Assembly (NCBI RefSeq): GCF_013373795.3
Contig: NZ_CP088022.1
Coordinates: 2,976,001-3,040,000, forward strand
Length of the DNA: 64,000 nt
Direction: 5' to 3'
Source of the DNA: Bradyrhizobium quebecense
GTDB taxonomy: Bacteria > Pseudomonadota > Alphaproteobacteria > Rhizobiales > Xanthobacteraceae
The notes below the pieces were generated by a model, which did not search any database, had not been told where the DNA came from, and saw only the letters and a program-made list of their open reading frames with translations. Positions 41,551 through 43,676 of the stretch are shown one piece after another. The translations under genes were made by a program, and so were the position numbers. The number at the start of each line of letters is the position of its first letter. Position 1 is the first letter of the stretch.

Positions 41551-42209
41551 GCACTGCGGCGCGAACCATCCTGCTGGTCGATGACCACGCCGTCGTTCGG
41601 GAGGGCTACCGGGCAATGCTTCAGAAGCAGCCGGGCCTCGCCGTCGTCGCCGAAGCCTCCGACGGCGTCGAGGCCTACCGCCTCTACAAGGAGACCGGGC
41701 CCGACCTCGTCATCATGGACCTGTCGATGCCCGGCATCGGCGGCATCGAGGCCATCCGGCGCCTCAGGCAGTGGGACAAGCGGGCAAAGATCCTGGTGTT
41801 CACCATGCACCAGAACGCGGCCTTTGCCGTGCAGGCGATCCGCGCCGGCGCGAGCGGCTATGTCACCAAGACCAGTCCGCCGGAGACGCTGGTGCACGCC
41901 GTGATGGATGCGCTGTCGGGCAAGATCGCGATCAGCCCGGATATCGACCACGAACTCGCGCTTAGCCACCTCGCCAGCGAGAGCGCCGCTGCCGATCTCC
42001 TGACCGCACGGGAATTCGAGGTGCTGCGCATGCTGCTCGCGGAAAAGACCACCGACGAGATCGCCGAGGCGCTGCATCTCAGCCCCAAGACGGTCGCGAA
42101 CCTACATTCCATGATCAAGGACAAGCTCGGCGTCGGCACGGACATCGAGTTGGTCCGCCTTGCGCTGCGGCAAGGCATCCTCACGCCGATCGATCTGGGC
42201 GAACGGTGA
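41547..42209 (+). CDS. LuxR/NarL-family response regulator
   Basis: A 220-residue regulator. The receiver domain has D12-D13, phosphoacceptor D58 in LVIMDLSMPGIGG, T84-like switch in ILVFTMHQN and the lysine in GYVTKTSPP. The LuxR helix-turn-helix covers about 150-212 (LTAREFEVLRMLLAEKTTDE, ALHLSPKTVANLHSMIKDKL). Partner of the kinase gene that it overlaps by 4 bases. Its targets are not obvious; the divergent DUF gene is the nearest candidate. Confidence 0.93.
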   Translation: MSTAARTILLVDDHAVVREGYRAMLQKQPGLAVVAEASDGVEAYRLYKETGPDLVIMDLSMPGIGGIEAIRRLRQWDKRAKILVFTMHQNAAFAVQAIRAGASGYVTKTSPPETLVHAVMDALSGKIAISPDIDHELALSHLASESAAADLLTAREFEVLRMLLAEKTTDEIAEALHLSPKTVANLHSMIKDKLGVGTDIELVRLALRQGILTPIDLGER

Positions 42210-42266
42210 ACCCGCATCGCCGAACGACCAAGGCTGCCCCACGGCCGTTCCCGCCGTGCGGGCAGG

Positions 42267-42296
42267 TTGACGAAACCGGACAGACAATCCAGAATA
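42267..42296 (+). promoter_or_regulatory. Possible promoter of the thr leader
   Basis: TTGACG (42267-42272) and AGAATA (42291-42296) with an 18-base spacer (or CAGAAT with 17) resemble a housekeeping promoter. The predicted start of transcription is at or beside the ATG of the leader peptide (42302), so the leader could be translated from a leaderless or very short 5' end. Confidence 0.4.
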
Positions 42297-42301
42297 GCGA
42301 C

Positions 42302-42379
42302 ATGCGCAACATCTGTCCGATGTCTTTGACCACTGCGACGACCAGCCTTGGCGGGTCGTCTCCTGGTCGTATGCGGTAA
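42302..42379 (+). CDS. Threonine-rich leader peptide (25 aa) of a thrS attenuator
   Basis: Short frame MRNICPMSLTTATTSLGG... ending at TAA 42377-42379. Codons 10-14 read ACC ACT GCG ACG ACC, that is four threonine codons within five (42329-42343), using three different threonine codons. The stop lies 21 bases before a strong intrinsic terminator and the whole precedes a threonyl-tRNA synthetase-like gene. This is the classic layout of a ribosome-sensing attenuator. Start could also be the internal ATG at 42320. No strong ribosome binding site is visible for either. Confidence 0.65.
   Translation: MRNICPMSLTTATTSLGGSSPGRMR
42338..42370 (+). promoter_or_regulatory. Attenuator hairpin 1:2 of the thr leader
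   Basis: ACGACCAG (42338-42345) pairs exactly with CTGGTCGT (42363-42370). The left arm overlaps the last two threonine codons. A rival pairing GGCGGG (42350-42355) with CCCGCC (42403-42408) would join the loop of this hairpin to the left arm of the terminator and prevent terminator folding. A ribosome stalled at the threonine codons would block the first hairpin and favour the second pairing. Confidence 0.6.
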
Positions 42380-42400
42380 CAGACTGCACAACCAGACAAG

Positions 42401-42429
42401 GCCCCGCCGGCGACGGACGGGGCTTTTTT
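42401..42429 (+). terminator. Rho-independent terminator/attenuator before thrS-like gene
   Basis: GCCCCGCCG (42401-42409) pairs with CGG-A-CGGGGC (42414-42423; one bulged A), closing a 4-base loop, followed by six T (42424-42429). It is the strongest intrinsic terminator I saw in the window and is placed 44 bases upstream of the thrS-like ATG, which only makes sense as a conditional terminator or as the end of an upstream small RNA. Confidence 0.8.
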
Positions 42430-42473
42430 CATGCGCAAACTCGTCCGCGCTGCTTCCATCGGGAGAGCAAGCT

Positions 42474-43676
42474 ATGGACGATCTCGATCACAGAAGCCTC
42501 GGAACGCGTCTCGATCTCTGGCACATCCAGGAGGATGCGCCAGGGATGGTGTTCTGGCATCCGCGTGGCAACACGCTTTATCGCGTCCTGGAGGACTACA
42601 TCCGCCGCAAGATGCGCCGGTTGGGCTATGCCGAGGTTCGAACGCCTCAGCTGCTGCCCCGCGACCTCTGGATTCAAAGCGGCCATTGGGAGAAATTCGG
42701 CGCGCACATGTTCGGCTTTGCCGACGGCGAGCGCGCAATGGCGCTCAAGCCGATGTCCTGTCCCTGCCACGTCCAGATCTTCAACAAGGGCCTTCGTTCC
42801 TGGCGCGACCTGCCGCTGCGCTACGCCGAGTTCGGCGTCTGTCACCGCGATGAGCCGTCAGGCTCGCTGCACGGACTGATGCGCACGCGCGGCTTCGAGC
42901 AGGACGACGCCCATGTGTTCTGCCGCGAGCAGGACGTGCCCAATGAAGTCGCCCGCTTCGTTGCGCTCCTCTCGGAAGTCTATGCCGAGTTCGGCTTCCC
43001 GGCGCCCGAGGTGTCGCTCTCCACCCGGCCGGCCGCGCGCGCCGGCTCGGACGAATTATGGGATTGGGCGGAAGCGACCCTTGCCGCGGCGGCGCGCCAA
43101 TGCGGCCTGTCGTACGAGATCCAGCCCGGCGAAGGCGCTTTCTATGGGCCGAAGCTGGAGTTCGCGCTGCGCGACCGGCTGGGCCGATCCTGGCAATGCG
43201 GAACGGTTCAACTCGACAGCGTTCTGCCGGGCCGTCTCAACGCGTCCTATGTCGGACCGGACGGCGATCGCGCGAACCCGGTGATGATCCACCATGCCGT
43301 ATTCGGTTCAATCGGTCGCGTCATCGCGATGCTGCTTGAACATCATGCCGGCGCGCTGCCGTTCTGGCTGTCGCCGGACCAGGTCGCGGTCGCGCCGATC
43401 TCGCGTGATCACTCCGGATACGCGGTCAAGGTTCTCGATGCGCTCGAAGCTGAAGGCATCAGAGGCGTCCTGTTCGCCAGCGCCGACACCCTGTCGCGAC
43501 GGATCGTTGCCGCACACGAAGCGGGCATTCCAGTCGTGGCCGTCGTCGGGCAGCGTGAAGCGCAACAAGGCACCGTGAGCCTCCGCGAGCGCGCCGGGGC
43601 CGTTTCCGTTTTGCCGCTGGATGACGCCGTCCGGGCGCTTCGACAGCGTGCTTGTCCGGGTCAGGTCGCCGACTGA
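42474..43676 (+). CDS. Threonyl-tRNA synthetase paralogue lacking TGS and editing domains
   Basis: A 400-residue ThrRS that begins at the catalytic core. Motif 1 region is LWIQSGHWEKFGAHMF; motif 2 is EFGVCHRDEPSGSLHG (Arg125); motif 3 is GSIGRVIAMLLEH. The zinc ligands match E. coli C334, H385 and H511: C96 in PMSCPCH, H147 in QDDAHVF and H273 in VMIHHAVFG. Residues about 301-400 form the anticodon-binding domain. Full ThrRS is about 640-660 residues; here the TGS and N2 editing domains are absent, so Ser-tRNA-Thr could not be cleared in cis. ATG 42474 has GGGAGAG upstream. Likely regulated by the upstream threonine attenuator. A normal thrS is presumed elsewhere. Confidence 0.9.
   Translation: MDDLDHRSLGTRLDLWHIQEDAPGMVFWHPRGNTLYRVLEDYIRRKMRRLGYAEVRTPQLLPRDLWIQSGHWEKFGAHMFGFADGERAMALKPMSCPCHVQIFNKGLRSWRDLPLRYAEFGVCHRDEPSGSLHGLMRTRGFEQDDAHVFCREQDVPNEVARFVALLSEVYAEFGFPAPEVSLSTRPAARAGSDELWDWAEATLAAAARQCGLSYEIQPGEGAFYGPKLEFALRDRLGRSWQCGTVQLDSVLPGRLNASYVGPDGDRANPVMIHHAVFGSIGRVIAMLLEHHAGALPFWLSPDQVAVAPISRDHSGYAVKVLDALEAEGIRGVLFASADTLSRRIVAAHEAGIPVVAVVGQREAQQGTVSLRERAGAVSVLPLDDAVRALRQRACPGQVAD

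Follow-up and report, generated by a model that had tools for sequence, protein, structure and literature searches.

A very probable threonine attenuator in front of an editing-less threonyl-tRNA synthetase paralogue in Bradyrhizobium quebecense and other proteobacteria

Introduction

Leader-peptide attenuators are known in front of several aminoacyl-tRNA synthetase genes, including (i) pheST, trpS, trpS2 and leuS in gammaproteobacteria and Streptomyces (PMC1262725) and (ii) hisS paralogues in Bacillus, which are preceded by leader peptides (PMC2965389); the controlled synthetase is thus sometimes a paralogue, as with trpS2 and these hisS genes (the cited papers are drawn on in excerpt throughout). 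The locus described here lies at positions 42,267 to 43,676 of a 64,000-nucleotide stretch of Bradyrhizobium quebecense DNA (the window; contig NZ_CP088022.1, positions 2,976,001 to 3,040,000), where a short open reading frame (ORF) with a run of Thr codons precedes the gene of a shortened threonyl-tRNA synthetase (ThrRS). This arrangement very probably works as a ribosome-mediated transcription attenuator: charged tRNA-Thr is what it senses, and the gene under its control encodes a stand-alone, editing-less paralogue of ThrRS. It differs from the pheST, trpS/trpS2, leuS and hisS systems in involving threonine and ThrRS, in a leader transcript that is probably leaderless, in the editing-less nature of the paralogue, and in a GGCGG/CCCCGCC element found in two bacterial classes.

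Among alphaproteobacteria, the rnTrpL/peTrpL system of Sinorhizobium meliloti provides an attenuator transcript that begins with the trpL ATG (PMC7298713, PMC10117765); it contains Trp codons and serves trpE, and its start compares with one that is only predicted in the present case. A Thr-rich possible leader has been reported in Sinorhizobium as SEP5, a small ORF that contains six Thr codons and three Lys codons and lies in front of an 'aspartate dehydrogenase' gene (PMC10117765), differing from the leader in the window by its biosynthetic downstream gene and its mixed codons. Specialised ThrRS paralogues are also on record: the conditional T2 enzyme of Anabaena is Zur-repressed and keeps an impaired editing domain, which is absent here (PMC4787780), and ObaO has Ser at the position of Gly463, which is kept here (PMC11252418).

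If the interpretation is correct, ribosome-mediated attenuation, described for few synthetases, extends to threonine and ThrRS by way of one element common to Bradyrhizobium, Roseobacteraceae and Burkholderiaceae that is without an Rfam match. The Rfam family Thr_leader (RF00506), the threonine operon leader, combines Thr codons with a terminator and stands before a different downstream gene; the score against it is 15.6 bits, compared with a gathering score of 55, and the window contains no match to a T-box or any other Rfam leader family at the gathering threshold. A Thr attenuator in front of a ThrRS gene did not come to light in searches of one open-licence library, an earlier mention in subscription papers being possible. 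Such an element might also be used to report on Thr-tRNA charging in living cells.

Conservation of the leader among genomes

The leaders of 76 distinct genomes were read, comprising a first survey of 59 loci with a shortened ThrRS and 17 further betaproteobacterial loci. In the first survey, ORFs ending near the anchor were compared and that with the highest Thr content was taken, so that the choice was not blind; a leader ORF was found at 59/59 loci, its stop codon placed 21-31 nt before a CC[CT]CGCC terminator anchor, with at least three Thr in seven codons at 57 of the loci and at least four at 54. The further betaproteobacterial loci include an ORF with at least six Thr in seven codons in 16 of the 17, and nine consecutive Thr codons occur in L243, L244, L245 and L247. 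Over all 76 genomes, a short ORF ends before a CCCCGCC-type terminator in 75, and 74 have at least three Thr in seven codons. The recurrence of the leader at 59/59 and 16/17 loci is therefore more than chance.

Longer ThrRS genes served as a control (110 loci, with 7 skipped at edges), all of whose frames extend at least 178 codons further upstream than that of the ThrRS in the window. A short ORF with four Thr in seven codons precedes only one of these 110 genes, compared with 54 of the 59 shortened ones at the same threshold, and no Thr-rich ORF occurs in the region upstream of the longer thrS of the window genome itself. In addition, the Thr codons of both Bradyrhizobium clades vary almost only at the third position, with 0/0/2 variant cells at positions 1/2/3 among eight sequences and 0/2/18 among 33 (the latter clade being taken as its 25-codon leaders, with L097 and L182 left out).

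The reading made from the sequence alone, hereafter the sequence-only reading, had proposed the Thr attenuator, with conservation of the Thr run, the frame and the pairings in orthologues as its check. Nearly all 76 genomes pass that check, distant alphaproteobacteria and betaproteobacteria included, and the interpretation as a whole is thereby supported; its scope, given as alphaproteobacteria, was drawn too narrowly, since betaproteobacteria carry both the leader and the shortened ThrRS.

Promoter and start of the leader

Re-reading of the sequence returned the 25-codon leader with four Thr codons in five that had been described (Table 1). It follows a TTGACG-17-CAGAAT arrangement at 42267-42295, the only promoter-like site in 42180-42520 (9/12 matches; mean of shuffles 0.0). 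For 56 of the 59 loci, a pattern search locates TTGAC upstream of the leader ATG at -39 to -35 (exactly at -35 in 42, many of them closely related), and the remaining three display, by eye and at the same place, TTGATC (L011 and L012, with the spacing counted from the ATG pair of alignment A1, not from the upstream ATG picked in the ORF survey) or TTTACA (L155). The further betaproteobacterial set has TTGA[CT] at -37 to -35 in 16/17 loci with the ORF, L184 included; the motif was not found there in L259. No strict promoter lies between the terminator and the ThrRS gene in any of the 59 loci.

Because the -35 element abuts the leader ATG, the leader mRNA is probably leaderless, its predicted 5' end coinciding with the ATG at 42302 or lying beside it. 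For the same reason translation is taken to start at 42302: of the two initiation sites considered by the sequence-only reading, 42302 and 42320, the former is retained and the latter abandoned. A short ORF with a cognate codon run, presumably translated, stands between the promoter and the structural gene.

Alternative RNA structures of the leader

None of 200 dinucleotide shuffles folds as well as the 129-nt leader itself (z -3.62). It contains ACGACCAG (42338-42345) and CTGGTCGT (42363-42370), two perfect 8-nt complements that had been put forward as the pairing of regions 1 and 2, and this pairing exists; the most highly conserved pairing of the Thr run is instead with GGCGG and its flank, seen in the window as GACGACC (42337-42343) with GGTCGTC (42354-42360). 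In alignment A1, 79.5% of the cells of this helix between the end of the Thr run and GGCGG or its flank are paired, and the helix includes 21 double-change cells, where shuffles give 8.0 and slid versions 3-16. The GG.GG columns are invariant or nearly so among 34 aligned leaders. GGCGG is conserved whether it is read Gly-Gly or Arg-Arg (L150, L011), and GGTGG is read Arg-Trp in L121; the constraint therefore probably acts on the RNA.

GGCGGG (42350-42355) is complementary to CCCGCC (42403-42408), as the sequence-only reading had proposed for the antiterminator, whose inner stem parts it had overlooked: 42363-42367 pairs with 42391-42395, and 42373-42377 with 42383-42387. In folds of the stalled state, GGCGG makes at least four of its five bonds with the CCCCGCC arm in 21/21 representatives, with inner stems that differ in sequence, and the folding of the antiterminator segment exceeds that of shuffles by more than 1.5 standard deviations in 17/21. 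Between the leader ORF and the gene lies an intrinsic terminator, GC-rich and followed by six T as had been noted. Over 34 sequences, 93.5% of the terminator cells are paired; because covariation is small (4 double-change cells against 1.3 in shuffles), the case for the terminator rests mainly on conservation.

Table 1. Coordinates of the predicted regulatory elements and of the ThrRS gene in the window
Feature	Position	Strand	Description
-35 element TTGACG	42267..42272	+	sole promoter-like site in 42180-42520; TTGAC conserved among loci
-10 element CAGAAT	42290..42295	+	predicted transcription start at or beside ATG 42302 (leaderless)
Leader ORF, MRNICPMSLTTATTSLGGSSPGRMR and stop	42302..42379	+	25 codons; ATG invariant in 34 aligned leaders
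Regulatory codons ACC ACT GCG ACG ACC (Thr Thr Ala Thr Thr)	42329..42343	+	read from the sequence
Region 1, GACGACC	42337..42343	+	pairs with 42354-42360; overlapping 42338-42345 pairs with 42363-42370
Region 2, GGCGGGTCGTC	42350..42360	+	42354-42360 with region 1, or GGCGGG with CCCGCC 42403-42408 (antiterminator)
Inner antiterminator stem, 5' half	42363..42377	+	CTGGT 42363-42367, GCGGT 42373-42377
Inner antiterminator stem, 3' half	42383..42395	+	ACTGC 42383-42387, ACCAG 42391-42395
Intrinsic terminator	42398..42429	+	left arm containing region 3 (CCCCGCC, 42402-42408), right arm ending at 42423, then six T (42424-42429)
Shine-Dalgarno-like GGGAG of the ThrRS gene	42461..42465	+	inferred from sequence
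ThrRS paralogue, 400 aa	42474..43676	+	catalytic and anticodon-binding domains, without N-terminal editing domain

The modelled switch

Base pairing was computed for 34 leaders of less than 93% identity, each RNA being taken as far as the last base of the CCGCC arm. The mean share of GGCGG:CCGCC bonds amounts to 0.78, 0.83 and 0.83 with the A site at Thr codons 1, 2 and 3 (n = 34, 34 and 32), to 0.31 at the fourth (n = 30), and to 0.13 both in the ribosome-free RNA and with the ribosome at the stop codon. The window leader gives antiterminator bonds of 0.98 for stalls at codons 1-2, 0.78 at codon 3, 0.08 at codon 4, 0.35 at the stop codon and 0.09 when free, its first three Thr codons lying within the modelled productive stalling window and the fourth outside. 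When the ribosome is slid codon by codon, the mean reaches 0.71-0.90 where the offset from GGCGG is between -24 and -12, is 0.24-0.42 at positions upstream of these, and does not exceed 0.05 between -9 and +21. At the offsets -21, -18, -15 and -12, where stalling works, the Thr fraction is 0.85, 0.85, 0.82 and 0.50; elsewhere it is 0.91 at -9, 0.26 at -24, 0.12 at -27 and -30, and otherwise at most 0.06. A switch amplitude above 0.5 is displayed by 26 of the 34 real leaders, compared with 63 of 340 shuffles that keep GGCGG and CCCCGCC, and the difference persists with footprint 3' edges of 9-15 nt (Thr codons 0.60-0.75, other codons 0.17-0.19). In these computations a mutually exclusive antiterminator is present, and the position of the control codons lets a stalled ribosome mask region 1 while region 2 stays free.

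In the switch predicted by this model, RNA polymerase would start at or beside the leader ATG and a ribosome would translate the leader immediately. With ample Thr-tRNA, the ribosome would reach the stop codon and cover the inner antiterminator parts, the end of the Thr run would hold GGCGG, and the CCCCGCC arm would pair downstream, transcription ending in vivo at 42424-42429. With scarce Thr-tRNA, the ribosome would stall on the first Thr codons, covering region 1, and GGCGGG would capture CCCGCC before the right arm is made, so that the terminator fails and the ThrRS, which may charge tRNA-Thr as an emergency backup, is made.

Several results speak against this picture. At the level of sequence, L251 keeps the terminator and, by eye, a nine-Thr run, with a longer G run that shifts the frame past the stop codon, and the terminator is also kept in L097, with two Thr, and in L154, with three scattered Thr. 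At the level of structure, (i) the helix between the end of the Thr run and GGCGG or its flank is not above shuffles in pairs with double change (3 against 2.9) or in pair types (8 against 9.6); (ii) in 4 of the 21 representatives (L089, L121, L156 and L182) the antiterminator segment does not reach a z below -1.5; (iii) a terminator scan at its own threshold found no site; and (iv) the folding of the leader is modest against synonymous-codon nulls (mean z -0.85; 14/34 below -1). In the model, a stall at offset -9, where 0.91 of the leaders carry a Thr codon, does not antiterminate; L148, L153, L154, L157 and L177 antiterminate (0.5 or more) ribosome-free or with the ribosome at the stop codon, and so do L244 and L249 with the ribosome at the stop codon (two of the eight betaproteobacterial leaders modelled); and no Thr codon of L121, L149, L150 or L151 brings antitermination to 0.6. 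Finally, once the full terminator is included, it is the structure preferred at equilibrium, also with a stalled ribosome (mean 0.89-0.93 at Thr codons 1-3). Antitermination must therefore be kinetic, as is generally assumed for ribosome-mediated attenuators.

The shortened ThrRS

The sequence-only reading had given the enzyme catalytic and anticodon domains only, and the domain content agrees, with tRNA-synt_2b and HGTP_anticodon as the sole Pfam matches above cut-off; a third match, below cut-off, is to a sugar-binding domain. The TGS and editing domains of editing-proficient bacterial ThrRS enzymes are absent. No N-terminal ThrRS similarity occurs in the 900 nt upstream at 59/59 loci of the first survey, the set that this comparison covered, in keeping with the description of the paralogue as editing-less. 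Solved ThrRS cores align over residues 5-391, and the model TIGR00418 (threonine--tRNA ligase) is matched with 457 bits, above its cut-off of 384. The zinc ligands and the arginines of motifs 2 and 3 are kept in 55/55 intact copies. By these residues and TIGR00418 the paralogue is classed as a threonyl-tRNA synthetase, with predicted activity. The window genome (G000) also carries a longer thrS, a 740-codon open frame that is 49% identical over the shared part.

In a tree given without rooting, 25 shortened representatives stand on one side of a branch with support 100/100, opposite 37 longer enzymes. Within the shortened clade, the copy of a genome of the window's genus (G063) groups with that of another family (G751) and two from Roseobacteraceae, again with 100/100. 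This branching departs from taxonomy, which speaks for horizontal transfer, and the shortened ThrRS seems to have spread in that way.

Residues are numbered as in Escherichia coli ThrRS, by alignment offset. Positions 583, 589, 575, 600 and 609 are those that we take to be anticodon-reading contacts. Arg583 is replaced by Val in 49/55 intact copies, Arg/Lys589 by Ala, Gly or Ser in 49/55 and Asn575 by Ala in 39/55; Glu600 is retained in 54/55 and Arg609 in 52/55. Judged from this alignment, the anticodon-reading loop is changed clade-wide. An editing-less, loop-altered ThrRS clade thus sits behind the leader in nearly every genome examined, which raises the question of why a less accurate ThrRS should be made exactly when Thr-tRNA is short.

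An operon or cluster partner was sought among ORFs of at least 90 codons by blastp (E 1e-12), a procedure that missed the ThrRS itself in 2/23 neighbourhoods and so is not exhaustive; no protein family other than ThrRS occurs in more than 3 of the 23 neighbourhoods, and one recurs in three. As no neighbour family recurs beyond this, the leader and the ThrRS seem to be the unit. A linked tRNA gene was also considered and set aside, the window and 12 of 13 loci having none and L156 a single tRNA-Pro.

Alternative explanations

Two alternatives accept the attenuator and assign a different role to the enzyme. In the first, the paralogue is a second, insensitive ThrRS induced when the housekeeping enzyme is blocked by natural inhibitors; this is unlikely, if still to be reckoned with. 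The switch would sense any drop in Thr-tRNA, and a precedent exists in ObaO, a second ThrRS that gives obafluorin resistance, Tyr462 being the obafluorin target, Gly463 a residue tied to resistance and Leu489 a position also changed in ObaO (PMC11252418). However, Tyr462, Gly463 and Leu489 are retained in 55/55 intact copies, with no substitution of the ObaO type, and only ThrRS recurs in more than three of the 23 neighbourhoods.

In the second, which we regard as quite unlikely, the paralogue charges a different set of tRNAs or misacylates. Conserved residues of the anticodon loop are lost and editing of Ser-tRNA-Thr would be missing, in an enzyme with intact zinc ligands and motif arginines, yet Glu600 and Arg609 are still present in nearly all intact copies, and editing could be supplied in trans by a full-length ThrRS of the cell, for which Anabaena offers a demonstrated precedent (PMC4787780). 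A wider version, distinctly unlikely, would have the locus as a horizontally mobile, self-contained emergency module, in which a leaderless, ribosome-read Thr-tRNA sensor releases the non-editing, anticodon-altered ThrRS only when tRNA-Thr is uncharged and translation continues through Ser-for-Thr substitution (programmed mistranslation) or through tRNAs that the housekeeping enzyme does not charge; the terminated leader RNA and the peptide may also act in trans as do rnTrpL/peTrpL.

That the leader is instead a separate gene for a small peptide or small RNA, complete with its terminator and merely lying in front of the ThrRS gene, its Thr run serving the peptide, is very improbable. Genomes of the genus Bradyrhizobium do contain similar small ORFs with the same terminator type before other genes, and the rhizobial trpL attenuator RNA and peptide act in trans (PMC7298713), but the leader ORF precedes the shortened ThrRS in 75 of 76 genomes from two classes, its codon positions and pairing fit the switch, and no other strict promoter stands before the ThrRS gene at the 59 loci. 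Autogenous control by binding of the ThrRS protein to its own mRNA, on the model of E. coli ThrRS, which is listed among self-regulating proteins (PMC2965389), is scarcely credible here, as it needs neither an intrinsic terminator nor a Thr-codon run with mainly synonymous change, although no search was aimed at a tRNA-like element bound by ThrRS, as in the E. coli thrS operator.

Distribution of the shortened ThrRS

Counts of shortened ThrRS copies are readings of listed rows by score and open-frame length, in draws that overlap and all include the window's genome: (i) at least 39 of 265 genomes in the window's genus, (ii) 7/248 in the family draw, (iii) 6/347 in the order draw, (iv) at least 13/385 in the class draw, and (v) a single genome outside the class (G1405) in the phylum draw of 299. 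The family of G1405 has the shortened ThrRS in 17/249 genomes, G1405 included, and is betaproteobacterial, judging from Caballeronia sp. SBC2 (Betaproteobacteria), which shares an identical leader region with G1682 (L256), a member of this family. Roseivivax halodurans (L011), Mesobaculum littorinae (L012) and Burkholderia arboris (L243) bring the distinct genomes to the 76 whose leaders were read.

The leader is kept in front of a broken or short ThrRS frame in L090, L091, L181, L183 and G159:C23, which suggests that the paralogue gene is dispensable; in G159 an intact leader precedes a 294-codon fragment frame, and this genome was left out of the 76. Two relatives with long additions, P0036 (635 aa, with PF06934) and P0076 (693 aa), are 77% and 72% identical. 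In CALQFM020000015.1 (L010), recorded as a Candidatus Kuenenia stuttgartiensis metagenome-assembled genome, the leader is that of G1089:C15 from the window's class, and the record is probably a mislabelled or mixed bin.

Similar leaders before other genes

Similar leaders in the window genome and genus were found with a model (R1) whose automatic consensus captured the terminator and a 3-pair stem only. The window genome contains a Thr/Lys leader, MITATKRTTKTTKPSGASGGVRA (L207, G000:C1:2810081-2810224), with a -35 element abutting the ATG and a CCCCGCC-type terminator, before asd (aspartate-semialdehyde dehydrogenase, identified by family search at L207 only). The same leader type precedes a presumed asd in L230-L235, L237, L240 and L241, with a downstream frame that is not clear in L233, and is probably the counterpart of S. 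meliloti SEP5 as that ORF is described (PMC10117765). A weaker match, L208 (G000:C1:5332431-5332573), comprises a small ORF, MITTSCAVVSSKKAPLPGTRDRAR, and a terminator before a dapA-like gene, which scores 202 bits against TIGR00674, just below the cut-off of 206. Similar leaders stand before asd and the dapA-like gene, and the ThrRS switch may therefore share its origin with an attenuator of threonine biosynthesis.

A different small ORF, such as MIKSSRKLNCNHMTRFGWAVGGVVR, occurs in 13 genomes of the genus (L217-L229), directly after a TTGAT-type -35 element and with a AGGCCCCGCCGGCATCGGACGGGGCC-like terminator. No amino-acid run is evident in these ORFs, and the frame downstream presumably encodes a DUF1127-like protein in 9 of the 13, going by resemblance seen by eye.

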